64,000 bases of DNA, taken from contig NZ_CP034346.1 in the NCBI RefSeq assembly GCF_003991425.1, positions 3,137,501 through 3,201,500 of the forward strand, written 5' to 3'. A program made the translations under genes and the position numbers. Under the pieces are notes generated by a model. The model saw only the letters and a list, made by a program, of their open reading frames with translations, made no database searches and was not told the origin of the DNA. Source of the DNA: Paenibacillus lutimineralis. GTDB lineage: Bacteria > Bacillota > Bacilli > Paenibacillales > Paenibacillaceae. This document shows positions 5,829 to 22,047 of the stretch, piece by piece; position 1 is the first letter of the stretch; every line of letters starts with the position of its first letter.

Positions 5829-5929
5829 CATGTCCAAAAGATGGGTAAGCTGATGAGAACGGCTTTGGAATGAACTTAAAGTACTGTAGATTTGAAGCCG
5901 TTAACGTATATTAAGGAGGAAATGATGCT

Positions 5930-7084
5930 ATGGCAGCTGTAAGACCAATGATTGCTATCACAGGAATCGGTACCGCGTTGCCGCCTTATCACATGGACCA
6001 GGCTGATACGGCACGCCGGATCGTAGACGCGCTGAGCAGTAGCCCGGATTCAGCCCGTTGGGCCAGAAGAATATTCAAGCAATGCGGTGTCGAGAGCCGG
6101 TATACCTGCGAGCCGGATCTGCTGCAAGAAGCATCGATATGCCGTTACCTGCCGCAAGAAGATCGATCGAAAGTGCCGTCGACGGCAGAACGAATGGCGG
6201 TCTATAAGCGGGAATCCGTCCCCCTCGCTTTATCTGCGGCGAGAGCGGCCTTAGCGGATGCGAAGATGGATGCCGAGCAGATCACGCATCTGATCACGGT
6301 TAGCTGCACCGGGCAATTCCTGCCGGGCATCGATGCGGCTTTGATTCGAGAGCTGGGACTTGTGCCTTCGGTCATGCGAATCCCGCTCACCTTCATCGGA
6401 TGCGCTGCCGGGATGAAGGCGATATGTTTGTCGAAGCAGCTGGTGTCCGGAGATCCGAAGGCAAACGTATTGATTGTGTGCGTGGAATTGTGCACTCTCC
6501 ATATCCAGCCTTCCGGGGATCGGGAAGCTTTGTTCGGCGCTTCTTTCTTCGGCGATGGAGCTTCGGCTTGTGTAATTGGCGTGGCGTCTTCGCAGCATCA
6601 GCATGTTTATCAGCTTGGAGATGAACGTTCGGTACTGCTCCCTGGGGGCGCCGATGAAATGATTTGGGAAATCGGCAATGATGGGTTTGACCTATATCTG
6701 TCCCCGAATATTCCGAGATTAATTAGAGATCATGTTCCAGCTGAAGTAGCGCATCTCGGTGGTGATGAGCATACCGAATTATGGGCGATTCATCCGGGAG
6801 GCAAAGGAATTGTCGAAGCGCTGCAATCGAGATATGGTCTGAAGGATGAACAGGTTGCGCCAAGTCTCGATGTCCTGCGAGACATTGGAAATGTGTCCTC
6901 CGCCACCATTTTGTTCGTAATGAAGAAGATGAGGGAACAGCTGCAGGAGCAAGGTACGGAGCGGGCATCCGGACTCGCGTTAGCCTTCGGCCCAGGTTTG
7001 ACGGCTGAAATGATCAAAATTACTTATGTTGCTTCCAGTGTGCCATCTAAGCGCCGCTCAGAGAATGCACATTATGTTTCCTAA
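5930..7084 (+). CDS. Type III polyketide synthase (chalcone synthase-like)
   Basis: 384-residue homodimeric ketosynthase expected to extend an acyl-CoA with malonyl-CoA and cyclise the product to an alkylpyrone, resorcinol or similar. The catalytic triad is complete: Cys158 in FIGCAAGMKA, His288 in IHPGGKG and Asn321 in GNVSSATI. The C-terminal AFGPGLTAEM signature closes the family pattern. ATG 5930 has AAGGAGG. The next gene starts inside this one (ATG 7074), and a flavoprotein follows, giving a synthase-methyltransferase-oxidoreductase cassette. Related Bacillus BpsA makes alkylpyrones; the cassette here is different from bpsAB because it has a soluble methyltransferase and a flavoprotein. 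GC content is clearly higher than in the surroundings. Product unknown. Confidence 0.92.
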   Translation: MAAVRPMIAITGIGTALPPYHMDQADTARRIVDALSSSPDSARWARRIFKQCGVESRYTCEPDLLQEASICRYLPQEDRSKVPSTAERMAVYKRESVPLALSAARAALADAKMDAEQITHLITVSCTGQFLPGIDAALIRELGLVPSVMRIPLTFIGCAAGMKAICLSKQLVSGDPKANVLIVCVELCTLHIQPSGDREALFGASFFGDGASACVIGVASSQHQHVYQLGDERSVLLPGGADEMIWEIGNDGFDLYLSPNIPRLIRDHVPAEVAHLGGDEHTELWAIHPGGKGIVEALQSRYGLKDEQVAPSLDVLRDIGNVSSATILFVMKKMREQLQEQGTERASGLALAFGPGLTAEMIKITYVASSVPSKRRSENAHYVS

Positions 7085-7805
7085 GCTGTATCGGCGGGCA
7101 TCGGGAGCTGAGCTCATGGACGATTTCACAAGTGGCGGTGAGGAGCTTCGTGAGGCACTACGGGTGCTTCGCCGCTTAAATCGCCTGTTCGCGGCAAGTG
7201 CACCAACGCTTTACGGAATTAAGCAATTATGGCGAGAGGCGGGCAAGCCGAAGCAGTTGTCCATTACAGACGTCGGTGCGGGCTCCGGTGATGTGAATCG
7301 GCGCGTTCTACAGTGGGCATCGCGGCAAGGCGTTACCTTGATGATCACGCTGGTCGATATGACGGAAGAAGCTTGCGCCGAAGCGCGCCAATTGTACCTT
7401 GATGAGCCGCGCGTTCAGGTCATACGTGGCAATTTGTTTGCGCTCCCTGAGGCGAGAACGGATATTGTGACAGGCACACAGATTCTGCATCATTTTTCAG
7501 AGGAAGAGCTGCCCCATGCCGTTGCAAGCATGCTACGGGGTGCCCGGCTTGGCGTTGTTGTGAATGATATCCATCGACACTGGATCGCTTGGACGGCGGT
7601 ATGGCTTGCGACCCGGGCTATTTCATCGAACAGGTATATCTTAAATGACGGCCCTTTGTCTGTGGCCAAAGGCTTTCGCTCGCAGGATTGGAAGCGCCTT
7701 AAGCAGGCGATGGGGATCAATCAGATCATGTATTCCTGGAGGCCGTTGTTCCGTTATGCAGTCGTGATCGGTAAGCCTGATTCATATTTAAGCGGACGGA
7801 GCTGA
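7074..7805 (+). CDS. Class I SAM-dependent methyltransferase of the PKS cassette
   Basis: About 243 residues starting MFPKLYRRAS. The SAM-binding motif I is ITDVGAGSGDVNRR; the acidic residue ending strand 2 is in TLVDMTEEA; and the post-motif GTQILHHFSEEEL is typical of class I methyltransferases. ATG 7074 is preferred because it overlaps the synthase end by 11 bases (translational coupling); the frame also opens at 7026. Likely methylates a hydroxyl of the polyketide product, by analogy with methyltransferases beside type III synthases. The C-terminal region after residue 160 has an aromatic-rich patch that may bind a lipophilic substrate. Confidence 0.82.
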   Translation: MFPKLYRRASGAELMDDFTSGGEELREALRVLRRLNRLFAASAPTLYGIKQLWREAGKPKQLSITDVGAGSGDVNRRVLQWASRQGVTLMITLVDMTEEACAEARQLYLDEPRVQVIRGNLFALPEARTDIVTGTQILHHFSEEELPHAVASMLRGARLGVVVNDIHRHWIAWTAVWLATRAISSNRYILNDGPLSVAKGFRSQDWKRLKQAMGINQIMYSWRPLFRYAVVIGKPDSYLSGRS

Positions 7806-7810
7806 TCGAG

Positions 7811-8980
7811 TTGGAGCATAATGTGGATGTTGTCGTTCTCGGTGGAGGCATCGCGGGAAGCTGTATCACTAAGGCACTCGCGAACAAGCAGTGGGAGACG
7901 GCCTTGATCGACCGGCGGACCTTCCCACGTCATAAAGTTTGCGGGGAATTCCTTTCGCCAGAAGCCAAGAGCACGCTGCACGCTCTAGGATTAACCGAGA
8001 CAGTCGTGTCGCTTCTCCCGTCGCGGATTGAACGGGCTAAGATCATCTTCGAGCGGGGCGGTGAAGTCGAGCTTCCGATCCCTGGCGCTGCCTGGGGACT
8101 TAGCCGATACGTGATGGACGAGGCGTTGCATCGAGCCGCGTTGCAGGCTGGAGCACAGCTGCACCTATCGACCACGGTTACTGGAATTGAACAGCATGGA
8201 AAAGGTTATACCGTTCGAACGAAGCAGGGAACGGATACGAACCTGTTCCATGCCAGGACTGTCATTGCTGCCTGGGGAGCGAACTCGCGGATTACGAATG
8301 CAGGACGTCGACCGGATACAGCCGCTTCGTCCCAGAAAGCCTACATTGGCGTTAAAACCCATTATAACGGTTTAAAAATGGAGCCGGTGATTGAGATGTA
8401 TTTCTTCCACGGTGGATATTTAGGATTATGTCCGGTCGAGGATGGCAGCGTGAATGCTGCGGCGCTGCTTAACCGTAGCGAATTTGTGAAGGCGGGCAAA
8501 TCGGTGTTGTCCATTCTGGAAGCGGCGATTCAGCGCAACCGAAGACTCGCCGAGAGGCTTGCAACAGCTGTGCCCGTCTACGATACTCAAGCTGCCATTG
8601 CTCCCGTCTATCTCCAGCATAAGCCAGCGCCATGGGACGGGCTACCTCGGCTAGGCGACGCTGCCGCGATGATCGCTCCTCTGTGCGGTGACGGGATGTC
8701 AATGGCGCTGCGCTCGGCTGCATTATGCGCTCCGCTCGCCGACAGTTTTTTGCGGGGAAGCATTTCTTTACTGGAATGGGAACAACGCTATACGCAAACG
8801 ATCCGGCAGGAATTCGCCAGCCCTTTAAGATGGGGTAGCGTGCTGCAATGGCTCATGAGCAAGCCTACCGTTCAGCAGTTTCTGCCAAGTGCGGCCCGAT
8901 TTGCGCCTCTGCTGGCAAACGGTTTAGTTCGAGCGACAAGATTGAAGCCGCTAGAACCGCAGGAATTTTATACAAAGTGA
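7811..8980 (+). CDS. FAD-dependent oxidoreductase, geranylgeranyl-reductase-like
   Basis: 389-residue flavoprotein of the PHBH/geranylgeranyl reductase superfamily. The N-terminal dinucleotide motif VVVLGGGIAGSC and the KVCGEFLSPEA segment, with the family's Cys-Gly, are present. GDAAAMIAPLCGDGMSMA is the second FAD motif. Start TTG 7811 lies six bases after the methyltransferase stop, with GGAG upstream. Expected to hydroxylate or reduce the polyketide made by the upstream synthase; halogenation is unlikely since no halogenase WxWxIP motif is seen. Third and last gene of the cassette. Confidence 0.85.
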   Translation: MEHNVDVVVLGGGIAGSCITKALANKQWETALIDRRTFPRHKVCGEFLSPEAKSTLHALGLTETVVSLLPSRIERAKIIFERGGEVELPIPGAAWGLSRYVMDEALHRAALQAGAQLHLSTTVTGIEQHGKGYTVRTKQGTDTNLFHARTVIAAWGANSRITNAGRRPDTAASSQKAYIGVKTHYNGLKMEPVIEMYFFHGGYLGLCPVEDGSVNAAALLNRSEFVKAGKSVLSILEAAIQRNRRLAERLATAVPVYDTQAAIAPVYLQHKPAPWDGLPRLGDAAAMIAPLCGDGMSMALRSAALCAPLADSFLRGSISLLEWEQRYTQTIRQEFASPLRWGSVLQWLMSKPTVQQFLPSAARFAPLLANGLVRATRLKPLEPQEFYTK

Positions 8981-9314
8981 TGATTGAAATACAATTGAAC
9001 GATATACGCCGCTACATAGCCTCTTCTAAGTTTGTTGAACTTGGGAGAGGTTTTATGTTGCCAACTTTGTTTATTATATGGGGAAAAATAGGTTGTATGA
9101 AGGTAAGATGTAAACAAAACATCCGAACAAGCATTATATGCTGATAGATAGAGAAGTGTTCCTGATAGATTCATAAAAGTAGGGGACATGCTGGGGAGGT
9201 TTTGCCTATTTTCCTATAAATATACGAAAGCCTACCACAAAAAAAGATATTCACCTAGCTCAAGTACCTTCAGCATGAATACATTGGACTAATCATAATA
9301 GGAGGTGTTGATCA
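8981..9314. other. Intergenic region, no gene seen
   Basis: AT-rich. No convincing reading frame or hairpin was found. It must contain the promoter of the collagen-like gene, and an AGGAGGTG ribosome-binding site ends it. Confidence 0.5.
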
Positions 9315-10214
9315 TTGAGTTGTCTGAATAAGGAGCACTGCAAAAAGAGAAGGGTAATTCTCTGCCCCTCAAAGAAAAAGAGAAGAAAAGTGAAGGTAAT
9401 AAAAAAGATCGTTCAAGTTAGCTGCCCTCCGCCGAAAGTCAAAGTTGTAGCGCCAACTGGACCTCAGGGACCTCAGGGACCTCAGGGACCGCAAGGACCT
9501 CAAGGACCGCAAGGACCTCAGGGACCGCAAGGCCCACAAGGCCCACAAGGCCAGCAAGGACAACAAGGACAACAAGGACAACAAGGAGAAAAAGGACAAC
9601 AAGGAGAGAGAGGGCCACAAGGACCACAGGGGCCACAAGGACCACAGGGGCCACAAGGACCACAAGGACCACAAGGACCACAAGGACCGCAGGGGCCACA
9701 AGGGCCGCAGGGAGCAACAGGAGCACCGGGAACACCGGGAGCACCTGGCGGTCTAGCATCGTTCATGTTCCTCTGTAGTTCAGAACAGCAGACACTTGCA
9801 GGGGCACCAACGCCAGGAGGGAAAGGGCAGGCCGTATCATTTATGACTACGGACTCTGTTATTGTTGGACCAGGACTTTCATTTACATCTCCAACCAATA
9901 TCAATATCCTACAAACCGGTTTCTACAATATAAGTTGGCAAGTATTTCCGAGGGAAGGCAACACGGCATTTGCTTTATTTTTTGATCCGGATGGCGCAGG
10001 GCCAGCAACGGCAGCAATTGTCCCTTGCAGTAATTACGGTTCGGGTTCCGGTAACCAGACTTATCAGGGGCAAGTTGTCGCGCTCCTTACTGCAGGAGGA
10101 ATTCTCACATTAAACCGTAACGATAACACGGGTACTGTTACGATTCTGAATGCAATAGGCGGCGGCACGCCTGTGACAAGTGCATCTATCGTGATCGAGC
10201 AACTGGCAACGTAA
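9315..10214 (+). CDS. Collagen-like surface/exosporium protein (BclA-like)
   Basis: 299 residues in three parts. A basic N terminus (about 1-45) is rich in Cys and Lys ([12 protein letters not shown]). It is followed by about 30 uninterrupted Gly-X-Y triplets, mostly Gly-Pro-Gln with a central Gly-Gln-Gln/Glu-Lys block. A C-terminal globular domain of about 150 residues starts [11 protein letters not shown] and contains [10 protein letters not shown], like the C1q/TNF-like trimerisation heads of BclA-type exosporium glycoproteins. There is no classical signal peptide, as in spore-surface proteins assembled from the mother cell. Start TTG 9315 has AGGAGGTG six bases before. The triplet region would form a rod projecting from the spore and could carry glycans. 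Promoter class not identified. Confidence 0.85.
9460..9750 (+). repeat. Collagen-encoding 9-base tandem repeat
   Basis: Tandem GGACCTCAG/GGACCGCAA/GGACCACAA units coding Gly-Pro-Gln. Synonymous variation clusters in blocks (CTCAG early, CCACAA late), suggesting local expansion by slippage. Confidence 0.85.
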
Positions 10215-10298
10215 GCCATAAATCAATAAATCCCAACTATAAACCAACTCATTTAGAATACGTTGAGATTGGCTTGATGAATTTAGAAAATCTGAGCT

Positions 10299-10365
10299 GG
10301 ACGACCACAAAATCAATTACAGGCTTGAAGTTCTTGTGAGTCTGAAGTTGATTGTAGGGTCGTCC
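10299..10365. terminator. Long hairpin after the collagen-like gene
   Basis: GGACGACC...AATCAATTACAG pairs with ...TTGATTGTAGGGTCGTCC across a 67-base inverted repeat. It lies 85 bases after the stop codon and has a weak T-tract (TTC), so it could be a terminator or an inserted palindrome. Confidence 0.5.
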
Positions 10366-10780
10366 TTCATACATATATATCAGTCCTTATTCAAGCGTTT
10401 TCGTCAGATCGACTCTCAGAACAGCTTGAATGAGCTAGTTTTATTCTATACTCTCTAGTAATGAAATAAACTAGAGGAATTAAAACCACATTCTAAGCAA
10501 ATTTCTTGATGCTATGTATGGTATAGCATAACAAGCGTTTTGATGACTCAATGCGATGCTGTAACAAATATTCTATAGGTGAACAATTCAAAAACGAATG
10601 AAGGCAGCGGGACGTTTCACTTTTACTTATGTTGGCAAAAACTGAAATATCCTGCAGCGAAACTTCGTTCATGTAATTCTAATGAATAAAAGGCAGCATT
10701 TTTTGCAATCGTACGGAAGTTCAGAATTTAAATGTATATCAGGAAAAGCACCAAAAGGACTCTTCAGGCCATATTGGTAG

Positions 10781-10894
10781 GAAACTCATTTTGACCATGT
10801 TGAATTTTTTCATAAAGCGTATGGTCCAGATGCAAGGAGTCTAGATCATGTGAAACCTCGCAATTGGCAATATAGTTATATGAATAGAGAATAA
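10781..10894 (+). pseudogene. Possible C-terminal gene remnant in 10366-11022
   Basis: After a stop codon, 37 codons read ETHFDHVEFFHKAYGP then RSLDHVKPRNWQYSYM before a stop. The composition looks protein-like but the family is not recognised. The rest of 10366-11022 is AT-rich with no reading frame of note. Confidence 0.25.
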
Positions 10895-11022
10895 AGTACA
10901 TTTTTTATCATCCGCTCGATGATATAATCTTATCTTGTAAAACAGAAACACACTATATTAAAGTTAAATAATGAATGATTCTTCTCACGATGAGCGAAAT
11001 TGGACAATGATCAGGAGGGCTT

Positions 11023-11619
11023 ATGAATATCGAAGAAATAAAGCAGATGATTAATTCTGGGGAAATGTATGATGATGCTGGGAAAGAAGTATCAGCACTT
11101 AGAGCACATGCGATATCAAGATGTCGGAAGTACAATCATAAAGTAAATACCAATGATGATTACGATATGTCCATTTTGAGAGAGTTATTTTCTGAAGTTG
11201 GGGGAAATGTGTATATCGAATCCAACTTCCGGTGCGAATTTGGTTTCAATATTTCTATCGGAAATGATGTTTATATCAATCATGACATGATCATTCTTGA
11301 CTGTAACGAAGTAAAGATCGGTAACGATGTCTATATCGGTCCTAGAGCCGGACTATATGCAGCAAACCATGCTGAAGATCCTTATGAACGTGCAGACAAA
11401 GGGGTGTATTCCGCACCCATAATACTGGAAGACAATGTATGGCTTGGTGGTGATGTTAAGATTACGCAGGGTGTGACCATCGGTAAAAATAGTATTATCG
11501 GAGCAGGAAGTGTTGTCACTAAAGATATTCCCCCTAATTCTATTGCTGCCGGAATTCCGTGTAAAGTGATCAGACCGATCCGATTTTCTGACCATCCATG
11601 GAAAAGACCCTCGATTTAA
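11023..11619 (+). CDS. Maltose/galactoside O-acetyltransferase family (hexapeptide repeat)
   Basis: 198-residue left-handed beta-helix acetyltransferase. The N-terminal helical segment has the Mac domain look (MINSGEMYDDAGKE). The hexapeptide turns run from VYIESNFRCEFGFNISIG to the C terminus, with the catalytic His in YAANHAEDP and the acetyl-CoA-binding IGAGSVVTKDIPPNSIAAG loop. ATG 11023 has AGGAGGGC upstream. It transfers acetyl from acetyl-CoA to a sugar hydroxyl in the cytoplasm; the natural acceptor of such enzymes is usually unclear. Single gene. Confidence 0.9.
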   Translation: MNIEEIKQMINSGEMYDDAGKEVSALRAHAISRCRKYNHKVNTNDDYDMSILRELFSEVGGNVYIESNFRCEFGFNISIGNDVYINHDMIILDCNEVKIGNDVYIGPRAGLYAANHAEDPYERADKGVYSAPIILEDNVWLGGDVKITQGVTIGKNSIIGAGSVVTKDIPPNSIAAGIPCKVIRPIRFSDHPWKRPSI

Positions 11620-11709
11620 CCTAAAATAGTAATTGTTCAAAGGGGAGATCCTTTTCGGCGATTCGCCTGCTTTTAAATTTGCGATACCATTAATATTGAG
11701 GTGGTAAAA

Positions 11710-12327
11710 TTGGAAGTTAAGTGGCTTGAATGGGCAAAGCATCTGCAGTCTATAGCACAAGCGGGGTTAACCTACTCAAAAGATCCATTTGATTTAGAAA
11801 GATTTCAGCAGATACGAGATATCAGCGTAGAAATTATGTCGAAGTATACAAGTACAGAAATGAAATTAATCAAAGACCTTTTTGCAAATGAAACTGGCTA
11901 TGCCACACCCAAAGTTGATATTAGAGCCGTAATATTTAAAGATGATCAAATACTCATGGTAAGAGAAAAAATGGACGGGAGGTGGGCTCTACCTGGTGGG
12001 TGGGCTGATATTGGTCTATCTCCAAGTGAAGTAGCAGTAAAGGAAGCAAAAGAGGAGTCTGGGTTTGATGTGAGAGCTATAAGACTGTTAGCAGTGCATG
12101 ACAAAAAACTCCACCCGCATCCTCCTTCAGCTTATCATGTATATAAGCTCTTTATACAGTGTGAAATTGTTGGTGGGCAAGCTGCTATAGGTGCAGAAAC
12201 AAGTGAAGTTAAATTCTTTTGTGAAAATAATCTACCTGATGAACTATCTATTGAAAGGAATACGGAATCGCAGATAAGAATGGCCTTTAATCTTAGCAGG
12301 AAGAAAGGGCGCGTGGAGTGTGACTAA
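11710..12327 (+). CDS. Nudix hydrolase (ADP-ribose pyrophosphatase-like)
   Basis: About 205 residues. The N-terminal 65-residue helical extension is that of the YjhB-type Nudix group; the catalytic Nudix box is GGWADIGLSPSEVAVKEAKEE, matching Gx5Ex7REUxEE with a Lys in place of Arg. The TTG at 11710 has GAGGTGG five bases before; a GTG at 11701 is the alternative. It hydrolyses nucleoside diphosphate-linked substrates with Mg2+; the substrate is not readable. In-frame codons after the stop (12328-12450) look like a different gene's tail, so the stop itself is genuine. Confidence 0.85.
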   Translation: MEVKWLEWAKHLQSIAQAGLTYSKDPFDLERFQQIRDISVEIMSKYTSTEMKLIKDLFANETGYATPKVDIRAVIFKDDQILMVREKMDGRWALPGGWADIGLSPSEVAVKEAKEESGFDVRAIRLLAVHDKKLHPHPPSAYHVYKLFIQCEIVGGQAAIGAETSEVKFFCENNLPDELSIERNTESQIRMAFNLSRKKGRVECD

Positions 12328-12450
12328 TCGATAGTCGGACAACCGCAATCGGCCATATTGATCGTATTGGTTAGTCCCGTAACAGCGGTTTTTGTCGCTT
12401 TCAGTATTATAGATTTGCTTGGCACGATCCAAAGGCCAGATGTAAGGTAG
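12328..12450 (+). pseudogene. C-terminal remnant of a membrane protein
   Basis: Directly after the Nudix stop, 40 open codons end in a hydrophobic stretch SAILIVLVSPVTAVFVAF followed by SIIDLLGTIQRPDVR and a TAG. It looks like the last transmembrane helix and tail of a lost membrane protein. No start codon or ribosome-binding site serves it. Confidence 0.35.
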
Positions 12451-12474
12451 AAGTAGAAATAGGAGAAGGTGACG

Positions 12475-13425
12475 ATGGCAAACATTAAAGAAATCGCAAA
12501 GCGTGCCGGCGTGTCCGTATCGACGGTTTCAAGGGTGTTGAATCAACATCCTTACGTGTCGGATTTGAAGCGAGCAGCTGTACAACGTGTGATTGATGAA
12601 CTGGACTATACCCCTAACCGATTAGCTGTCGATTTAATTCGCAAGGAAACAAGAAGTATCGGTGTGATCATGCCGTACAACAACAATCAAGCATTTGATC
12701 AATTGCTTCATGGCGTACTTAATCGATCGGTTGAGCTTGATTATACCGTGGTGATTCTGCCCACCAAGTACGATCCGGATAAAGAGCTCAGTTACTTAAA
12801 TATGCTGAAAAATAAACTACTGGATGGAATCATCATTACCTCTCGTTCGAACACTTGGGATGCAATTCTTCCATATACCAAATATGGGACAATCGTGGCC
12901 TGCGAGTTTTCGGATCATCCTGAGATTGGCTGTGCTTACATGGATCGATATGAATCTTATGTAAATACATTTCAATTGTTAAAAGATAAAGGGCATTCCC
13001 AAGTCGCTTTTACAACAGCAAGAGGAGAAGAGAGCAATAGTACGAAGCTGACGATAAAAGCGTATCAGAATATCTTTGGCGATCTGCCGTCGGAATACCA
13101 TATCAGGGACTGCTACAGTATTGATGACGGGGTAAGAGCTGCTCAACAACTGCTTCATTTAGATCCAAGACCAACTGCAGTTTACGCGAACGGCGACGAG
13201 GTTGCGTCAGGCATCTATCAGCACGCGAGAAGCCTACAGCTGAGAGTCCCGGAGGATCTGGCGATTATCGGCCAAGAAAACCAGCCTGTTGGAATTGGGT
13301 TGAGCTTATCAACGGTTGATCATCAATTAGTGAAAGTGGGAGAACAAGCTTTTGATCTAACAATGAACAGATCTAAGGATAAGATAGAGATTCCGTATCA
13401 AATTATTGTACGGCACACTACATAA
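12475..13425 (+). CDS. LacI family transcriptional regulator
   Basis: 316 residues. The helix-turn-helix MANIKEIAKRAGVSVSTVSR and hinge region PNRLAVDLIRK are textbook LacI; a periplasmic-binding-like effector domain follows, with RSIGVIMPY and the C-terminal STVDHQLVKVGEQAF. ATG 12475 has AGGAGAAGG upstream. It stands alone without an adjacent sugar-uptake operon, so its targets are probably elsewhere. The effector is unknown. Confidence 0.92.
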   Translation: MANIKEIAKRAGVSVSTVSRVLNQHPYVSDLKRAAVQRVIDELDYTPNRLAVDLIRKETRSIGVIMPYNNNQAFDQLLHGVLNRSVELDYTVVILPTKYDPDKELSYLNMLKNKLLDGIIITSRSNTWDAILPYTKYGTIVACEFSDHPEIGCAYMDRYESYVNTFQLLKDKGHSQVAFTTARGEESNSTKLTIKAYQNIFGDLPSEYHIRDCYSIDDGVRAAQQLLHLDPRPTAVYANGDEVASGIYQHARSLQLRVPEDLAIIGQENQPVGIGLSLSTVDHQLVKVGEQAFDLTMNRSKDKIEIPYQIIVRHTT

Positions 13426-13554
13426 CGAATTCGCCTAGTTCTTCACAATCTATTAAGGTGGCACGGCGGGAGCGGAAATAAAAAAGTTAAGATTGACCTA
13501 TATTTTTACGTATGGGAAAATAATGGTAACTTAAAAATGAAAGGAAAACAATGC

Positions 13555-14931
13555 ATGAGCAACCCTTTCCAATTCATTCCTATTCGTCAACTTGCAGATA
13601 AGTTTCCGGAAGGCTCTTGGTGGGCGAAGTTTTATCAGGATTTTAGTGACGAGCAACTTGCAGCTTATTATGAAGGGGATTTGACGCTGCCTTCTCTCAA
13701 TCTGGATTGGGAGGAGCCTTTTCCGCAACAAAAAGAGGTAATCATCATTTTTATTGATGGAAATTTTACCGTAGACAATCTCTATAATAAAGAAACTGAT
13801 GGCGCCATAGGGCTTATGGTGACCGGTAATTTGAGTGCAAAAAATATAGCTGTAGGCGGTCAGGAAATTTATGTTTCGGGCAATCTGATGATTCAGGAAA
13901 TATTGTGCGGTTCCTATAATCATGGGGAAACGATCGTTAAAGGTGATCTCAGCGCTGCGGTTTTAGTTCAGGATGACGAGTACAACCTCAAAGTAGGCGG
14001 GCAAAAATCAATCGCATGCATCGTTAATGTGTGGGAGGGGGACGGCGTATTTCAGGAGCTTCCGGTGGGCATTCATGAAGTGTTGGTCGATGAAGTTTTT
14101 CTGGATATGGAAGAGGAGGATTCTAGCTTTTCTTTTGTCACTCTAGTGACCCTTATTGAAGAAGGGAGTTCCCCATTAAAAAAAATAGATGAATCGCTCA
14201 CGAAAAAGGAAGCAATTCATTTATATTTTACCCGTAACACGATCAATGAGGAAAATATATTGAAATTAACTCAGTCTATATTAATACCGAATGACAAGCC
14301 ATCTTTTGATTTTCAGGAGGACGGCGTATTTTTCAAAGTTCAGCAGGAGCATATTGATGCTGACGGAGATCAACGGGATCTCAGCGTTTATATGAAAGAT
14401 AACCAGCATCACTATTATATTTGGGTGGAGAAAGATCATTCCGTTGGTTTGTTGAGGAGAACCGTAGATGAAGGGTCTGAGTGGGAGGACATTACAGAAG
14501 AGTCTCAGGAAGAACTATCAGAGATTAGCGATTGCTGGACGATGCTGCTGACCTGCGTTAATATGGCTGAGCTTTATTTGCGCAAGATTGAGGTACAGGA
14601 TGTGCAAGACATTTTGCAGTATCCTGTAATTCAAGCATTATCTTTGGAAGAGGCGGAGAATGACGGATTCTGGGACGGCTCAAAATGTTACACCTTCCGT
14701 CAAGCGCGTACAGACGAAGATGGAGACTACTTACATGCTCGAATTGAGATCCAGACTCCTGATGGAGCGTATTATTTTTATACACTGGACAATGGAACTT
14801 ATGTTTCCCGGCATTATCAGCCGCCCAATCAATATGGCATGCAGGACTTGTCCTATTTGGACCTTAGGCGCTGGGAAGCATCAGAGCAGTATTTTGCAAG
14901 ATTCAAACAATTTATTGCTCAGAAGATATAA
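13555..14931 (+). CDS. Bactofilin-like (polymer-forming) protein of unknown function
   Basis: 458 residues. Residues about 60-150 contain the right-handed beta-helix pattern of polymer-forming proteins (IIIFIDGNFTVDNLYN, GLMVTGNLSAKNIAVGG, IYVSGNLMIQEILCG, GETIVKGDLSAAVLV), in which each turn repeats a G(N/D)L step. The remainder is acidic with no recognised domain. ATG 13555 has AAAGGAAA; a second ATG lies six codons upstream. Large acidic proteins with such repeats occur among immunity-type proteins of polymorphic toxin loci and also as free-standing proteins; neither role can be decided here. Isolated gene. Confidence 0.55.
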   Translation: MSNPFQFIPIRQLADKFPEGSWWAKFYQDFSDEQLAAYYEGDLTLPSLNLDWEEPFPQQKEVIIIFIDGNFTVDNLYNKETDGAIGLMVTGNLSAKNIAVGGQEIYVSGNLMIQEILCGSYNHGETIVKGDLSAAVLVQDDEYNLKVGGQKSIACIVNVWEGDGVFQELPVGIHEVLVDEVFLDMEEEDSSFSFVTLVTLIEEGSSPLKKIDESLTKKEAIHLYFTRNTINEENILKLTQSILIPNDKPSFDFQEDGVFFKVQQEHIDADGDQRDLSVYMKDNQHHYYIWVEKDHSVGLLRRTVDEGSEWEDITEESQEELSEISDCWTMLLTCVNMAELYLRKIEVQDVQDILQYPVIQALSLEEAENDGFWDGSKCYTFRQARTDEDGDYLHARIEIQTPDGAYYFYTLDNGTYVSRHYQPPNQYGMQDLSYLDLRRWEASEQYFARFKQFIAQKI

Positions 14932-15124: not shown

Positions 15125-16240
15125 TTATTTGAAAATTCTAGGAACTCTCTGACTCAAGTTACAAGCAACTTCAAATGATATAGTTCCCAACATATCTGCC
15201 ACATCATCTAATGATATAAAATGATTTCCTTGACCTCCATAAACTACTACCTCATCACCAATATTTACACCCATAATATCAGTTACATCGATCATACAAA
15301 AATCCATACATATTCTACCGAAAACAGGAGCCTTTTGTCCGTGAATAAGAACGTAAGCCATACCAGATAATTGTCTCGAATATCCATCCCCATACCCAAT
15401 TGGAATAGTTGCAATAACTGCTTTACCTCTTTCAATTTTAGTTGCTCCATATGATATACCATACCCTTTCTCAAATGTTTGGATATGGATGACTTTTGTT
15501 TTTAACTGCATTACTTGTCTAAGCTTAACCTTTGCCTTATTCACCTCTTTGGATGGATAAAGACCATACATTGAAATTCCGATTCGAACCATATCGTAGG
15601 TCATATTTGGATTTTCGATAGTTGCAGCACTATTTGCAATATGAAGTAGGGGAATAGAAACTTTTCGTTGATCCAATTCTTCCAATAAACTTTCCCATCG
15701 CTTCTTTTGTTTTTCTGCATACCATTTGTCAGCTTCATCTGCGGTAGCAAAATGTGAGAATACTCCTTCTAGATAGATCCCCTCCAATTTTGAAACGATA
15801 TCGATAAAATCACTTGCTTCTTCTGCTTGCAGTCCCAATCGTCCCATTCCTGTATCCACCTTGACGTGAACCTTTGCCTTTTTCCCTAAGATCTGCCCAG
15901 ACTTTGATAAAGATTCTGCATGTTTCATATCAAAAATTGATTGTGTTAAATCCCAATACACAACAAGATTCGATGCTGAAGGAGGTGTATATCCAAGTAT
16001 AAGTATAGGTGCTTGAATGTCTGATTTTCGTATTTCAATGGCTTCTTCTAAACTAGCCACCGCTAAATAATCCACTCCACTATCAATCGCTTTTTTGGAA
16101 ACCTCGACAGCACCATGTCCATAACCATTCGCTTTTACTACTGCCATTATTTTTGTTGAGTTAGGTATTATTCTTCGAAATTCACAAATATTATGTGAAA
16201 TATTACTAAGGCTAATTTCAGCCCATATTGGTCTATACAT
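15125..16240 (-). CDS. alr: Alanine racemase
   Basis: 371-residue fold-type III PLP enzyme interconverting L- and D-alanine for peptidoglycan. The PLP lysine motif VVKANGYGHG lies at about residue 36, VDTGMGRLG is the middle signature, RIGISMYGLYP is in the core, and the C-terminal beta domain carries the FGRICMDFCMIDVT catalytic-Tyr-side segment. Two ATGs are adjacent; the second (16240) gives the MYRPIWAEISLSNI start with GAGGAG upstream. Lower GC than the neighbours and divergent from the phosphonate operon. Probably a second, accessory racemase since such genomes carry another with acpS; that is inference. Confidence 0.93.
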   Translation of the reverse strand: MYRPIWAEISLSNISHNICEFRRIIPNSTKIMAVVKANGYGHGAVEVSKKAIDSGVDYLAVASLEEAIEIRKSDIQAPILILGYTPPSASNLVVYWDLTQSIFDMKHAESLSKSGQILGKKAKVHVKVDTGMGRLGLQAEEASDFIDIVSKLEGIYLEGVFSHFATADEADKWYAEKQKKRWESLLEELDQRKVSIPLLHIANSAATIENPNMTYDMVRIGISMYGLYPSKEVNKAKVKLRQVMQLKTKVIHIQTFEKGYGISYGATKIERGKAVIATIPIGYGDGYSRQLSGMAYVLIHGQKAPVFGRICMDFCMIDVTDIMGVNIGDEVVVYGGQGNHFISLDDVADMLGTISFEVACNLSQRVPRIFK

Positions 16241-16634
16241 CATATCTCCTCACTTTGATTTTATATTTTAGCAATCTTCAACAGAGCCTTCCATAAGCTT
16301 AAAATAGTTAAATACTGCATTCGCCCCTTGCTAAAATTTTTACATATCTACACCAATCCCAAAAGGTCCACACAATATGTATTTTTACGGTCTTGTGGTA
16401 GGGTGTGTAACTATAAAGATTGTCTTTGAATAATTGAAAAATCCGGAGAAGTTATAGGTATGAAAGAGACGATTACTATTTATTCCTTTTGTAAAATGTC
16501 AACAACTTAAAGGATTTACGAGAAGATTTAATAAAACATATTTCTCCATTAGGATGGGAGCATATCAACTATTTCCTTAGCGTTGTAATTCGCGTTTTGT
16601 TTGTGGTATTCCAATTAAAAAAATAAAGCAGGCT

Positions 16635-16709
16635 CCTACGGTTAAGGCGCACGCCCTTAACGTAAACCGTAGGCGCGACTAAGCGCACCGTGATAGGTGC
16701 CTTTTTTTT
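16635..16709 (+). promoter_or_regulatory. Structured leader with intrinsic terminator upstream of the phosphonate operon
   Basis: A long stem (CCTACGGTTAAGG at 16635-16647 with CCTTAACG...CCGTAGG ending 16673) is followed by a terminator hairpin GCACC-GTGATA-GGTGC (16685-16700) and eight T residues. It lies 139 bases before the first operon gene, and no + strand gene lies between it and the divergently transcribed racemase. A terminator in that place fits leader attenuation. I do not recognise a known riboswitch class. The rest of 16244-16847 shows no gene. Confidence 0.5.
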
Positions 16710-16847
16710 GTTTTCTGGATTGTTATCGAAATGAAATTCCGGCGATAGCGATTGTATTTTTCCTTTATGGGAAATTAGTCTATACAGCAGGGCATTTAGA
16801 TGAATATGCTCTTTGTATCTGTATCCCAACATGAGAAGAGGATGTCA

Positions 16848-17609
16848 ATGTCCATTGGAAAAATGAAGAAGTATAAGGAGATGGTAGTTAACCCTGTCTT
16901 ACGTCCACATTTGCCCGAAACTTACTGGATGACAGATTCAAGGACATTACGAATGCTGAAAACCTACTCATCTGTTTTCATAAAACCAAATTTCGGGAGT
17001 GGAGGCAGCGGAATCATTCGTGTCAAGAGATTGCGTAATGGATATGAGGTTCGTTGCGGTCCAAGTCGAAAGGTCGTTGGAGCTCATTCTGTCTTAAAGT
17101 CAATTCATTCATATCGGAAATCAAAGGACCATTATTTAGTGCAGAAAGGCCTGCGAATAGCGGAGTATCAAGGGAAAATCTTTGATATCCGTGTATACCT
17201 TCAGAAGCCAGAGGATAAATGGAGGATTTCGGGTATGACAGCCCGTGTAGCCGCACCTCATAAATTTGTGACCAATTATCAAAAAGGAGGACACGCTGAA
17301 TCCTTGCAAAAGGTTCTTTTAAACCTTTTTCAGAATAACCAGATCAAAGTTGCCAACTGTTTTCGTAAAATAGAACAACTATCCATTACCGTTGCCAACA
17401 CAGTAAATAAATGGCATTCGATTCATGAACTAGGAGTTGATCTTGCCCTAGACAAGAACGGCCACATGTGGATCATTGAAGCGAACTCACATCCGGGTCA
17501 TCAATTGTTCACTCAACTTCCTGACCATACAATGATCAAAACCATTATGGATAACAAACGAAGGATCGAAGAAAAAAACAACAAAATTAATTTAAAGGGA
17601 AGGAGATAA
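16848..17609 (+). CDS. YheC/D-type ATP-grasp protein, first gene of phosphonate operon
   Basis: 253 residues of the YheC/YheD endospore-coat-associated ATP-grasp family. Visible elements: HLPETYWM near the start, the ATP-binding loop [16 protein letters not shown] (Lys and glycine-rich loop), [11 protein letters not shown], and the C-terminal metal/ATP motif [22 protein letters not shown] with the Glu-x-Asn pair. ATP-grasp enzymes make acyl-phosphates and join a carboxylate to an amine. ATG 16848 has AGAAGAGG; the frame also opens at 16800 without a site. Six bases separate it from the PEP mutase gene. The likely role is ligation of a 2-aminoethylphosphonate-related amine to a carboxylate; this is inference from context. 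Confidence 0.8.
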
Positions 17610-17614
17610 GTTCA

Positions 17615-18514
17615 ATGAATAAACCTAAGCAGCTTAGACGCTTAATCAGCTCCGGCCAACTAGAATTTATCATGGAGGCCCATAATGGTCTGTCTGCCAA
17701 AATTGTAGAGGAGGCAGGATTTGAAGGGATTTGGGCTAGCGGATTATCAATCTCTGCGGCAATGGGAGTAAGAGACAATAACGAAGCCTCCTGGACCCAA
17801 GTTCTAGATGTCCTGGAATTCATGAGCGATGCAACGTCCATCCCGATTCTACTGGACGGGGATACTGGATACGGCAACTTCAATAATGCAAGACGATTGG
17901 TTAAGAAGCTGGAACAGCGAGATATTGCGGGTGTTTGTATTGAAGATAAGCAATTTCCAAAAATGAACTCCTTCTTAAACGGTCAATTACAGCCGATGGC
18001 CGATATCGAAGAATTTTGCGGTAAAATCAAGGCGATGAAAGATACGCAAACCGACGATGATTTTGTAGTTGTAGCCAGAGTAGAAGCTTTTATTACAGGG
18101 AGAGGACTTGGAGAGACGCTGCGGCGGGCGGAAGCATACCGGAAGGCAGGCGCCGACGCGGTTCTCATACACAGCAAAAGGCCAGATTTCATGGAGATTG
18201 AGGCGTTCATGAAGGAATGGGCGGGAAGATTGCCCGTAGTTATCGTACCTACGAAGTATTATTTGACTCCAACCGTCAAGTTTCGTGAGTCGGGGATTAG
18301 TCTTGTGATTTGGGCCAACCATAATTTGCGATCATCCATTGAGGCCATGAAACAAGTATCCCGCAGAATTTATCAGGATGAGAGCCTTGCCCATATCGAA
18401 AAGGATGTTGCAACATTAGAGGAAGTTTTCAGGCTTCAAGGAGCAGAAGAGCTAGAAGATGCAGAACAACAATATCTCCCGGTGTCGGAGATCAGATCTA
18501 ATGAGGGGATATAA
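17615..18514 (+). CDS. pepM: Phosphoenolpyruvate mutase
   Basis: 299 residues of the isocitrate lyase/PEP mutase superfamily. It rearranges phosphoenolpyruvate to phosphonopyruvate, the C-P bond-forming first step of nearly all phosphonate pathways. The diagnostic mutase signature [10 protein letters not shown] is at residues 110-119; the paralogous lyases lack the Asn-Ser ending. WASG (40-43), Mg-binding DGDTGYG (81-87) and [12 protein letters not shown] are also in place. Length is normal for a stand-alone mutase. ATG 17615 has AAGGAGAT. Its stop overlaps the next start (TAATG), giving translational coupling. The equilibrium of this reaction is unfavourable, so the following decarboxylase is needed. 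Confidence 0.95.
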
Positions 18515-19674
18515 TGGACACGAAGAAGTTTGGAGAAGAACTCCAAAAATTAGGATTTAATTTTTTCAGCGGTGTACCGTGCTCCTACCTGAAAAATTTA
18601 ATCAATTACGCCATCAACGAATTCGATTATGTTGCAGCAGCTAACGAAGGAGATGCCGTTGCTATCGCATCTGCTGCTTATGTTGGAGGGCAGAAATCCG
18701 CTGTGCTTATGCAAAATTCAGGGCTAACCAACGCCGTTTCACCGCTAACGTCCCTTGTCTACCCTTTTCGTATTCCGCTGCTTGGATTTGTCAGCCTTCG
18801 CGGAGAGCCGGGGATTCCTGATGAGCCACAACATGAGCTTATGGGCAGGATCACGACGCAGCTGCTGGAATTGATGAACGTAGAATGGCAATATCTTTCC
18901 AAAGATTTGGAGGAGGCCAAAAAACAACTGATTCTGGCCAATGAGCAAATTACCGGAAATCGGCCATTTTTCTTTGTGGTGAAGAAAGGAACCTTTGACA
19001 GAGAGCCTTTGAAAAAGCAACAAAACTCCATTCATTCAAATCAGATCATACGGCATGCACATAAGGACAATCAGATGCCTGCGCGGCATGAGGCGTTAGC
19101 TGCAATTAATTCGGTGAAAGACGGGGATACGATTCAGCTTGCAACCACAGGCAAAACAGGACGGGAATTGTATGAAATTGAAGATGCAAGCAACAATCTG
19201 TACATGGTTGGCTCGATGGGGTGCGTCAGCTCTTTCGGGCTTGGGCTTGCACTGAGTCAGCCTGACAAGAATATTGTCGTGATTGACGGAGACGGTTCTT
19301 TATTGATGCGCATGGGAAGCCTTGCGACAAACGGGTATTATAACCCCAACAATATGATTCATATTCTTCTCGATAATAATGCCCACGAATCGACTGGCGG
19401 GCAAAGCACGGTATCCCATAATATTGATTTCGTGAATATTGCTGCTTCCTGCGGTTACACGAAGTCGATCCATGTCCATAACCTCGAAGATCTGAAAGTT
19501 TGTTTGCAAGAATGGAAAGAGACTAAAGGGCTAACTTTCCTGTATATGAAAATATCCAAGCAATCCAAGGATCAGCTTGCCCGCCCGGGCATAAAACCTC
19601 ACGAAGTAAAGGAACGCCTACAGCGATTTATCCGAAACGATCACGAAAAGATCAAGGAAGTGGATGGCTCATGA
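18514..19674 (+). CDS. ppd: Phosphonopyruvate decarboxylase
   Basis: 386-residue thiamine diphosphate enzyme that decarboxylates phosphonopyruvate to phosphonoacetaldehyde and pulls the mutase step forward. The N-terminal half holds the cofactor-activating Glu45 in NEGDAVA and the family segments FFSGVPCSYLKNLI and MQNSGLTNAVSPLTSL. The C-terminal half holds the TPP motif GDGSLLMRMG...NN with DNNAHESTGGQ. Both domains are fused in one chain, as in most Ppd proteins. It starts on the last base of pepM's stop and ends in an ATGA overlap with the transaminase gene. Ppd is distinguished from sulfopyruvate decarboxylase mainly by context, which here is clear. Confidence 0.94.
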   Translation: MDTKKFGEELQKLGFNFFSGVPCSYLKNLINYAINEFDYVAAANEGDAVAIASAAYVGGQKSAVLMQNSGLTNAVSPLTSLVYPFRIPLLGFVSLRGEPGIPDEPQHELMGRITTQLLELMNVEWQYLSKDLEEAKKQLILANEQITGNRPFFFVVKKGTFDREPLKKQQNSIHSNQIIRHAHKDNQMPARHEALAAINSVKDGDTIQLATTGKTGRELYEIEDASNNLYMVGSMGCVSSFGLGLALSQPDKNIVVIDGDGSLLMRMGSLATNGYYNPNNMIHILLDNNAHESTGGQSTVSHNIDFVNIAASCGYTKSIHVHNLEDLKVCLQEWKETKGLTFLYMKISKQSKDQLARPGIKPHEVKERLQRFIRNDHEKIKEVDGS

Positions 19675-20816
19675 GTTCTACCGTAAAAAGAAATATTTTG
19701 CTTACTCCAGGTCCGGCAACGACTACAGAAAGCGTGAAATGGTCACAGGTGGTTCCGGATATATGCCCACGCGAAGCCGAGTTTGGCGAAATCATGGAGC
19801 ATATTTCTACAGAGCTTACCTGTTTGGTTGCGGATCCGGGTGGCTATCAGACCGTGTTATTTGGCGGATCGGGAACTGCAGCTGTGGAATCGATGATCAG
19901 TTCTGTCCCCGGCAATGAAACCATGGTAATTATCAATAATGGCGCTTATGGAAAACGAATGTGCGAAATCGCGGCGGTCTTTGGAATCGATTATTTGGAA
20001 TTCAAAAGTCCATTTGATGATGCGATTCATTTGGCTGACTTAGAACGTTACATCCAATCTTCTGGTCGAAAGATAACTCATCTTGCCGTCGTGCATCATG
20101 AGACAACGACAGGCCTTCTGAACAAGATAAAGGAAATTGGTTTATTATGCAAAAAAAATCATATCGACATGATCGTGGATGCAATGAGTTCGTTTGCTGC
20201 CATTCCGATTGACATGAAGGAGATGAACATTTCCTTCTTAGCATCCAGTTCGAACAAGAACCTGCAGGGAATGCCCGGCGTTTCGTTCGTCATCGCGGAG
20301 AAAAGTAAGCTAGAGAGTTTGAAGGACAGGAAACCAAGAAGTTATTATTTGAATTTGTACGCTCAATATCGATATTTTGCGGAACATTTGCAGATGCGGT
20401 TTACACCACCGGTACAGATATTGTATGCGCTTAGGCAGGCTATCGAGGAATTAAAGCAGGAGAGTGTGGCCAAACGTCATGAAAGATATGTGGCATCCTG
20501 GAATACTTTAATCAGCGGTCTAAAAAGGCTGGGCTTAACCTATATTGTCCCCGAAGAGCATCACTCCAAGATGATTACATCCATTCGTGAACCCTATGTA
20601 GATTTTGATTTCCAATCCATGCATGATTTTTTCTATAGTAAAGGTGTTATGATTTATCCGGGTAAGCTGGAGGAACTAAAGACGTTCCGAATTGCCAATA
20701 TCGGGGATATTACGTCCGAAGATATCGAGTTTTTTTTGGAATTGTTTGAAGATTATCTAGGCGGCATATCGAATATGAGAAAGGCGGAGAATCATGAGAA
20801 CAAGAACAAGAAATAA
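19671..20816 (+). CDS. phnW: 2-aminoethylphosphonate--pyruvate transaminase
   Basis: 381-residue class V aminotransferase (PLP). Working here in the biosynthetic direction, it converts phosphonoacetaldehyde to 2-aminoethylphosphonate with alanine as donor. LLTPGPATTTESVK is the family start; Asp170 in VDAMSSFAAIPI and Lys196 in SSSNKNLQG are the cofactor-binding residues; the C-terminal YPGKLEELKTFRIANIGDI closes the family signature. The catabolic partner phosphonatase (phnX) is absent and pepM/ppd are present, so the pathway runs toward the amine. ATG overlaps the ppd stop by four bases. Its last 23 bases overlap the start of the second ATP-grasp gene. Confidence 0.95.
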   Translation: MSSTVKRNILLTPGPATTTESVKWSQVVPDICPREAEFGEIMEHISTELTCLVADPGGYQTVLFGGSGTAAVESMISSVPGNETMVIINNGAYGKRMCEIAAVFGIDYLEFKSPFDDAIHLADLERYIQSSGRKITHLAVVHHETTTGLLNKIKEIGLLCKKNHIDMIVDAMSSFAAIPIDMKEMNISFLASSSNKNLQGMPGVSFVIAEKSKLESLKDRKPRSYYLNLYAQYRYFAEHLQMRFTPPVQILYALRQAIEELKQESVAKRHERYVASWNTLISGLKRLGLTYIVPEEHHSKMITSIREPYVDFDFQSMHDFFYSKGVMIYPGKLEELKTFRIANIGDITSEDIEFFLELFEDYLGGISNMRKAENHENKNKK

Positions 20817-21624
20817 ATGGATTAAATATTTGTTTATGAAAAAAAATGCATCCTTAGCTCCCTACCTGCCGGAAACCAGAAAAATGAGCAATCAAGCCCT
20901 TTGGAGCCTGCTTGAGAAACACAGGCATGTCATGGTTAAGCCAGTTTGGGGGAGCCGTGGACGGGGAGTTATCCAAGTCTCGGATTTGGGGAATGACAAC
21001 TACATCATACATTTCGAGAATATGAGAACGATGAAACGGGGAAAAAAGAATGCCTATCGTTATATCAAAAGTAAAATAGGGTCTTCCGCTTATATGGTTC
21101 AACGAAGAATTACCCGTCCTACTATAAATAAACGTCTCTTTGATATGAGAGTCATTGTTCAACGGAAAAGAAATTCATCGGACTGGGTAGTTACGGGAAA
21201 GGTAATCAAGGTAGCGGGCAAAGGTTATATTGTTTCCAACAATACGCGGAGTCATGGACAACTGCTTAGGTTTAAGCCGGGTATCCAACGTTCATCTATT
21301 AGACATTTGCCTATTACCGAATTGGAAACTCAAATAGATAAGGTTTCACTTCTTTCCGCAGATACATTAAGACCATTGTTCCCTAATCATCGTATTTATG
21401 GCTTGGACATTGCAACCGATCGGCAAGGTCATGTTTCCATTATTGAAGCCAACCTTTATCCGGCAATGTCCCATTTCCTTAAACTGAAGGATGGGGTAAT
21501 GTATCGCCGAATACTCTCTTATAAAAATGAACCACCACTGTTGAGTAACCGAAAAATGATTATAAACAAGCGTTATGTTTCGAATCATTTAGCTGACTCG
21601 TCCAATCCCCTCATATTCCATTAA
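20794..21624 (+). CDS. Second YheC/D-type ATP-grasp protein, last gene of phosphonate operon
   Basis: 276 residues, paralogous to the operon's first gene but well diverged. Same family landmarks: YLPETRKM, the ATP loop VMVKPVWGSRGRGVIQV, the central KRLFDMRVIVQRK, and the end motif YGLDIATDRQGHVSIIEAN. It has a basic N terminus (MRTRTRNKWIKYLF) and a C-terminal extension of about 35 basic residues that the first protein lacks. ATG 20794 lies inside phnW with AAAGGCGGAG upstream, so translation is coupled. Two ATP-grasp enzymes around one aminophosphonate pathway suggest successive ligations or two different acceptors; this is inference. Confidence 0.8.
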   Translation: MRTRTRNKWIKYLFMKKNASLAPYLPETRKMSNQALWSLLEKHRHVMVKPVWGSRGRGVIQVSDLGNDNYIIHFENMRTMKRGKKNAYRYIKSKIGSSAYMVQRRITRPTINKRLFDMRVIVQRKRNSSDWVVTGKVIKVAGKGYIVSNNTRSHGQLLRFKPGIQRSSIRHLPITELETQIDKVSLLSADTLRPLFPNHRIYGLDIATDRQGHVSIIEANLYPAMSHFLKLKDGVMYRRILSYKNEPPLLSNRKMIINKRYVSNHLADSSNPLIFH

Positions 21625-21726: not shown

Positions 21727-22047
21727 ATGCGGAGAATTATTGCCATTATCTTGCTAATCGTCGGAGCGTGCTTTCTGATTTTGGATGCCAGACAACAGGT
21801 TAACTCAAAGAAAGAACTTGAAGAAACCAATGCGCTGATTACGCAGTCATCAACAACAGTAAATTCGGAAGAAAAACGTACAATAGATGTATCGTACCTC
21901 ACTCCTACGGTCAGTAGAGCGGAATTCCATCCAAAACAGAACGATCTCATTATGCTTGAATTCCCGCATTCCCTATGGATGGTGAACAAATACTACTGTC
22001 GAGATATCAGAATACCGTTTTTTAAAATTTTGACAAACTGTCGGTAG
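21727..22047 (+). CDS. Small membrane-anchored protein, probably truncated
   Basis: 106 residues starting at ATG 21727 with GGAGGAGAG upstream. The first 20 residues form one hydrophobic segment (IIAIILLIVGACFLIL) preceded by two Arg, a signal anchor. A polar, extracellular-looking linker follows with LEETNALITQSSTTVN. The layout resembles the N terminus of class D sortases, which are about twice as long, but no catalytic His/Cys/Arg region is present, and the last 15 residues (CRDIRIPFFKILTNCR) look like out-of-frame readthrough. Possibly a 5' fragment left after a deletion. Confidence 0.35.
   Translation: MRRIIAIILLIVGACFLILDARQQVNSKKELEETNALITQSSTTVNSEEKRTIDVSYLTPTVSRAEFHPKQNDLIMLEFPHSLWMVNKYYCRDIRIPFFKILTNCR

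Follow-up and report, generated by a model that had tools for sequence, protein, structure and literature searches.

The question raised by this locus is what becomes of 2-aminoethylphosphonate (AEP) when the genes that would make it are enclosed between two ligase genes. The locus is a small, self-contained cassette of five genes, all called on the plus strand at 16848-21624 of the window, that is, of the 64,000-nucleotide stretch of the Paenibacillus lutimineralis genome analysed here (contig NZ_CP034346.1, 3,137,501 to 3,201,500; positions below are those of the window). In order, the genes encode G1, a YheC/D-type ATP-grasp ligase; the phosphoenolpyruvate (PEP) mutase PepM; the phosphonopyruvate decarboxylase Ppd; the AEP aminotransferase PhnW; and G2, a second YheC/D-type ligase. 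Bacterial phosphonate clusters have mostly been read as surface chemistry activated by cytidine monophosphate (CMP) or as antibiotics (PMC6697681). We propose, with rather better than even confidence, that this conserved cassette instead makes an AEP amide, the core enzymes supplying AEP and the two ligases joining its amine to a carboxylate.

PepM (17615-18514) scores 382.8 bits against TIGR02320 (cut-off 319.55), is the sole match in this single-contig, 6.5-Mb genome and carries, starting at residue 110, a ten-residue motif that fits EDKxxxxxNS. Ppd (18514-19674) reaches 416.4 bits against TIGR03297 (cut-off 312.5) and has a GDG...NN motif from residue 259. PhnW, or AepZ (19671-20816), scores 381.7 bits against TIGR03301 (cut-off 360.8) but only 331 bits against the catabolic-type model TIGR02326, below its cut-off of 400.8, and its lysine 196 lies within SSNKN. 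We take these motifs to be catalytic and lysine 196 to be the pyridoxal phosphate lysine. By family and motif, PepM would convert PEP to phosphonopyruvate, Ppd would turn this into phosphonoacetaldehyde and CO2, pulling the unfavourable PepM step, and PhnW, likely run towards AEP, would complete the route; judged by sequence, the three likely make AEP. A sequence-only reading of this DNA had described a same-strand operon of these five families, and every protein does score above its family cut-off, with the motifs claimed for PepM, Ppd and PhnW found at their positions in the three proteins. It had also started G1 at 16848, which improves on the mechanical open reading frame (ORF) opening at 16800; we prefer the ATG at 16848 because orthologues use the same start position. 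The junctions it gave hold for TAATG (PepM/Ppd), ATGA (Ppd/PhnW) and the 23-base overlap of PhnW and G2, but the gap between G1 and PepM is 5 bases (17610-17614) and not 6.

G1 (16848-17609, 253 residues from the conserved start) and G2 (20794-21624, 276 residues, neighbouring PhnW) match PF14398 with 187 and 155 bits (cut-off 26.8) and are two of the 14 PF14398 matches in the genome. The ATP-grasp active-site set of Lys, Arg, Asp, Glu and Asn is conserved in both, as invariant K46, R115, D198, E211 and N213 in G1 and K49, R119, D205, E218 and N220 in G2 (each in its own numbering); these residues presumably have catalytic roles, and G2 has further invariant residues specific to it. In a putative AEP pocket of G2, R152, H227 and R239 would be candidate contacts for the phosphonate. 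G1 and G2 form separate clades (SH-like approximate likelihood ratio test, SH-aLRT, 99 and 98 respectively) in a tree that came from a quick search, with some long branches flagged, and that does not contain Bacillus subtilis YheC and YheD; 11 of the 12 other YheC/D-type genes of the genome fall outside both clades. Structure models were obtained with a predicted local distance difference test (pLDDT) score of 95.2 for G1 and 88.9 for G2. The predicted folds are closest to the amide-forming ArgX/LysX, RimK and tubulin ligases, the G1 model being nearest to ArgX. By sequence, a search for solved relatives of G1 gave one match only, with an E value of 0.3, and a profile of G2 and its relatives gave 20 distinct but weak matches among solved sequences, all of them tubulin ligases or Pby1-type proteins. 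Among the 120 matches listed out of 270 for G2, relatives bear names such as 'YheC/YheD family protein', 'ATP-grasp', 'RimK-type ligase-like' or 'hypothetical protein'; one relative, P0089, labelled Paenibacillus xerothermodurans, has 477 residues, of which ~230 form a basic tail of low complexity beyond the ligase domain. In the scheme that we favour, G2 would use ATP to activate a carboxylate as an acyl phosphate and then transfer it to the AEP amine, and this amide ligation by G2 is probable. G1 would likely form a second amide bond, so as either to extend the amino-acid part or to cap a further carboxylate, and this is the weakest step of the scheme.

If the ligases act on the product of the core, the two should travel together, and for the most part they do. 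From a scan of named genomes we compared the best 80 of 216 pepM loci, picked by likeness to this PepM, with membership of the G1 and G2 clades set at a phmmer score >180. The sequence-only reading had placed the AEP genes and the two ligase genes in a single operon, and the pepM-ppd-phnW neighbourhoods show that this set is conserved: the order G1-PepM-Ppd-PhnW-G2 occurs in 24 of the 80 loci, 22 from Paenibacillaceae and two from Thermoactinomycetaceae, counting L055, whose G1 frame is shortened, and L062, in which Ppd is in pieces. Chengkuizengella has a reordered form, PepM-G2-Ppd-PhnW-ligase. With a broader profile, a YheC/D-type gene lies inside the pepM operon (gaps <250 bases, opposite-strand genes ignored) in 52 of 66 Bacillota loci vs. 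none of 14 others, two of which have no phylum given. Across 394 genomes of the family, PepM was found in 48 (E up to 1e-70), G1 in 33 (1e-60) and G2 in 31 (1e-50). PepM is present in 28 of the G2 genomes (Fisher P of 1e-26, uncorrected for genome relatedness and with overlaps counted by eye from the hit lists) and in 24 of the G1 genomes, so that the ATP-grasp genes are mostly kept with pepM in the case of G2 and less firmly in that of G1. PhnW adjoins G2 in 27 of 30 G2 loci fetched, and PepM is present in 17 of 30 G1 loci fetched. Three genomes have G2 but not PepM, and two of them look like holders of damaged cassettes: in G077 the start of PepM runs into the end of Ppd in a single frame, and in G347 Ppd-PhnW-G2 is present and PepM was not found. 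The third, G076, holds an isolated and weaker G2-like gene. The G1 gene of P. macerans (G012) shares a contig with the cassette but is ~21 kb away from it, and that of P. oralis (G014) is likewise ~27 kb away. One further genome, G287, holds a G1-G2 pair, 99 bases apart, without the core, and PepM-Ppd-PhnW with a second G2 on another contig, a layout expected if both ligases act on AEP made elsewhere. A megablast search for plasmid copies of the cassette gave no match.

The known alternative fates of AEP fit the cassette less directly. None of its five proteins has a nucleotidyltransferase domain by Pfam, and no clear PntC-like protein was found in the genome, the best match reaching 34.4 bits. 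PepM or PhnW proteins of a size suggesting fusion (PepM of at least 480 or PhnW of at least 580 residues, length being a proxy that misses free-standing nucleotidyltransferases) occur in none of 32 G2-clade loci vs. 28 of 48 others; at one of the others, L061, Pfam confirmed the PhnW fusion and gave no nucleotidyltransferase match for the 504-residue PepM. The only phnX above the cut-off (362 bits) lies ~2.85 Mb away, beside its own PhnW and not beside the cassette phnW, and through this separate phnW-phnX pair the genome can likely degrade AEP. With no nucleotidyltransferase domain in the cassette, no clear PntC, no proteins of fusion size in G2-clade loci and a distant phnX, ligation of the AEP amine is therefore the most direct reading. 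One could still suppose that the ATP-grasp genes are bystanders and that PepM, Ppd and PhnW serve AEP storage or turnover alone. The phnW-phnX pair would be in keeping with this, as is PMC4209062, where pepM and ppd of P. polymyxa CR1 and E681 are read as degradation genes and phnW as one of possible storage. However, the overlapping genes, the company that G2 keeps with PepM and the G1-G2 pair that G287 has apart from the core all speak against it, and we regard it as very improbable.

Alternatively, the product of the cassette could be a phosphonopeptide that is secreted as an antibiotic or signal, like rhizocticin or the phosphonoalamides. AEP is a common and non-toxic metabolite, which counts against an antibiotic. 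The genes flanking the cassette vary between groups, and among them, most being unannotated, no transporter, resistance or nucleotidyltransferase gene is kept with it across groups; the product is therefore likely neither a secreted antibiotic nor a CMP-activated surface head group, and would rather be kept in the cell or stay behind on lysis of the mother cell. ATP-grasp ligases are nonetheless known to build phosphonopeptides, in Bacillus as well (PMC11867202), and antiSMASH calls a cluster in a relative as of the phosphonate biosynthetic type (PMC7829367). On balance we consider secretion improbable, if less so than the idea of bystander ligases.

Several observations weigh against an AEP amide as the product of the cassette. 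The likeness of the G1 and G2 folds to amide-forming ligases does not name a substrate. An ArsR gene (103-117 residues) and an ArsB-type pump gene (474-484 residues) follow the cassette in L052, L053, L055 and L115, all loci of P. tyrfis or P. elgii (Pfam was run on L052 only), and a pump is thus not absent everywhere. The same genome also has a stand-alone G1 paralogue, 68% identical, away from any pepM (L124, 6710-7447, at ~278.7 kb), and nine of the 33 G1 genomes lack PepM. Finally, the operon lacks a YheC/D gene in 14 of the 66 Bacillota pepM loci, and in some loci, such as those of Shimazuella (L078) and P. roseus (L102), G2 is the only ligase.

As to which carboxylate the amine would be joined to, the sister loci offer some indications. 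In 10 of the 80 loci, PepM is accompanied by between one and four YheC/D-type genes and by a KamA-family radical S-adenosylmethionine gene (CxxxCxxC), which is inside the pepM operon in eight (the Cohnella loci L079, L082, L083, L084 and L093, and L067, L076 and L092) and nearby in L065 and L087. Six of the ten proteins were scanned; all score 208-217 bits, above the KamA family cut-off of 199.2 and below the lysine and glutamate aminomutase cut-offs. This combination hints at a beta-amino acid partner. In L061, a Bacillus-type locus (5889-14911), PepM is preceded by a fusion of a COOH-NH2 ligase with a YheC/D domain (PF14395 and PF14398) and by a MurF-like ligase, and Ppd, the nucleotidyltransferase-PhnW fusion and then a NUDIX gene complete the locus. 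By sequence clusters, L059, L064, L066, L069 and L070 share this gene order, and such loci, of which L061 alone was put through Pfam, give Bacillaceae and Brevibacillus a second build of AEP and ligase genes. For the family scans, one Cohnella and one Bacillus-type locus served as examples of the sister loci. In several builds, then, AEP genes come with amide ligases, and the KamA, MurF-like and COOH-NH2 ligase genes suggest amino-acid partners; the carboxylate used by the cassette would most likely be an amino acid or a short peptide.

A KamA-type aminomutase was also considered as a general partner of the five-gene cassette and was dropped, the relative in this genome being unlinked to the cassette. 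That relative shares 68-77% identity with the ten copies at pepM loci and is found in 102 of the 394 family genomes, and at the same cut-off there was no match in G012, G014 and G028, which carry cassette genes. An Asp of lysine aminomutase 2a5h, whose role we have assumed, aligns with Arg in the relative, a hint from the alignment at an acidic substrate.

The groups that carry the cassette are known for endospores, and the acceptor could also be sought there. In this alternative G1 and G2, acting as tubulin ligases or RimK do, would attach AEP to carboxylates of a protein or polymer and so decorate the spore coat or a surface protein. The nearest solved structures do act on protein carboxylates, and the basic tail of P0089 would be in keeping with such an acceptor. 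YheD forms a shell round the B. subtilis forespore, its function being stated as unknown (PMC7911427), and yheC and yheD are sigma-E/SpoIIID genes (PMC517825). These spore-coat data are not directly transferable, because the G1 and G2 clades lie apart and the B. subtilis proteins are outside our tree. Moreover, no conserved gene for an acceptor protein was seen beside the cassette, the flanks varying by group, and the KamA-family and MurF-like genes that accompany PepM in sister loci suit small acids better. We therefore hold attachment to a polymer to be unlikely, though the least so of the three alternatives.

A role confined to the spore would also fit poorly with transcription. A study by quantitative PCR reports transcripts of the clusters that it tested, a phosphonate cluster among them, from exponential phase through transition to stationary phase (PMC7829367). 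The pepM primers given there match the P. terrae cassette (L045), the reverse exactly and the forward with one mismatch, with a 175-bp product as reported, and we infer that the cluster is of this cassette type, its strains not being among the loci compared here. Sequences upstream of the cassette showed no clear sporulation promoter when scored against general consensus sequences: over 23 related upstream regions the sigma-E-like score was in slight excess, 10.04 vs. 9.61, with none of 60 shuffles as high (the window itself has 9 of 14), the sigma-K consensus was equalled in three of 60 shuffles, and the sigma-G, F, A and H consensus sequences were not enriched. A sigma-70 scan gave 18 sites vs. 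18.0 in shuffles. A terminator-like hairpin with a T-run lies 5' of the cassette on the plus strand (16685-16710) but is not above chance, four such sites having been found vs. 6.9 expected in shuffles. The RNA fold of 16600-16760 has a z-score of -1.33, and Rfam gave one chance-level match in the upstream region (E up to 5) and none in the whole window at the gathering score.

If AEP amide ligation is the function of the cassette, a widespread ATP-grasp branch uses AEP as its amine, which would be a further fate of AEP and would give a testable activity for YheC/D-type proteins, including YheD of B. subtilis spores. Much more tentatively, we can imagine that spore-forming Bacillota have a class of phosphonates made through AEP amide ligation by a dedicated YheC/D branch. 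In such a class, G2 would be the AEP ligase with a basic signature, the partner acids would be lineage-specific (Paenibacillus using plain amino acids, Cohnella-type loci beta-amino acids made by KamA and Bacillus-type loci peptides built by MurF) and the products would end on the spore; this would be the first chemistry for the YheC/D family.

Around the cassette, an alanine racemase gene (PF01168, PF00842) lies directly 5' on the minus strand (15125-16243). After G2 there is a 106-residue ORF (21727-22047), perhaps the remnant of a gene, which starts like a membrane anchor and matches nothing in Pfam. An ORF with long collagen-like GPQGPQ repeats, of a kind seen on spore surfaces, is found 6.6 kb from the cassette (9315-10214).

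Among known systems, the sequence-only reading knew of no described pathway of this composition, and in the top-ranked results of the literature searched we likewise found no description of pepM-ppd-phnW with YheC/D-type ATP-grasp genes. The cassette is real and conserved, and is apparently an undescribed build of a known theme, that of a phosphonate and an ATP-grasp ligase. The defining trait of phosphonoalamide synthesis is taken to be a transamination route without Ppd. Phosphonoalamide clusters (PnaA-PnaD), present also in Bacillus, resemble the cassette in leading to a phosphonate peptide through a PEP mutase and two ATP-grasp ligases, but they use phosphonoalanine as the head group, which a transaminase forms from phosphonopyruvate (PMC11867202), whereas the cassette has a Ppd above its cut-off and ligases of the YheC/D type. 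The head group of argolaphos is aminomethylphosphonate, reached by a longer route. Like the cassette, the argolaphos cluster combines PepM, Ppd and an ATP-grasp candidate and joins an aminophosphonate to amino acids; it differs in belonging to Streptomyces and in having one ATP-grasp candidate among three amidoligase candidates (PMC8976061). The CMP-AEP pathways share the making of AEP by PepM, Ppd and an aminotransferase but activate it as CMP-AEP through PntC (PMC6697681), which is not in the cassette. The pepM-ppd-phnW genes of P. polymyxa CR1 and E681 are likely the same core, flanking ATP-grasp genes going unmentioned in the passages of PMC4209062 that deal with them. Lastly, G1 and G2 share PF14398 with B. 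subtilis YheC and YheD but form short single-domain clades, outside which 11 of the 12 other family members of this genome fall.

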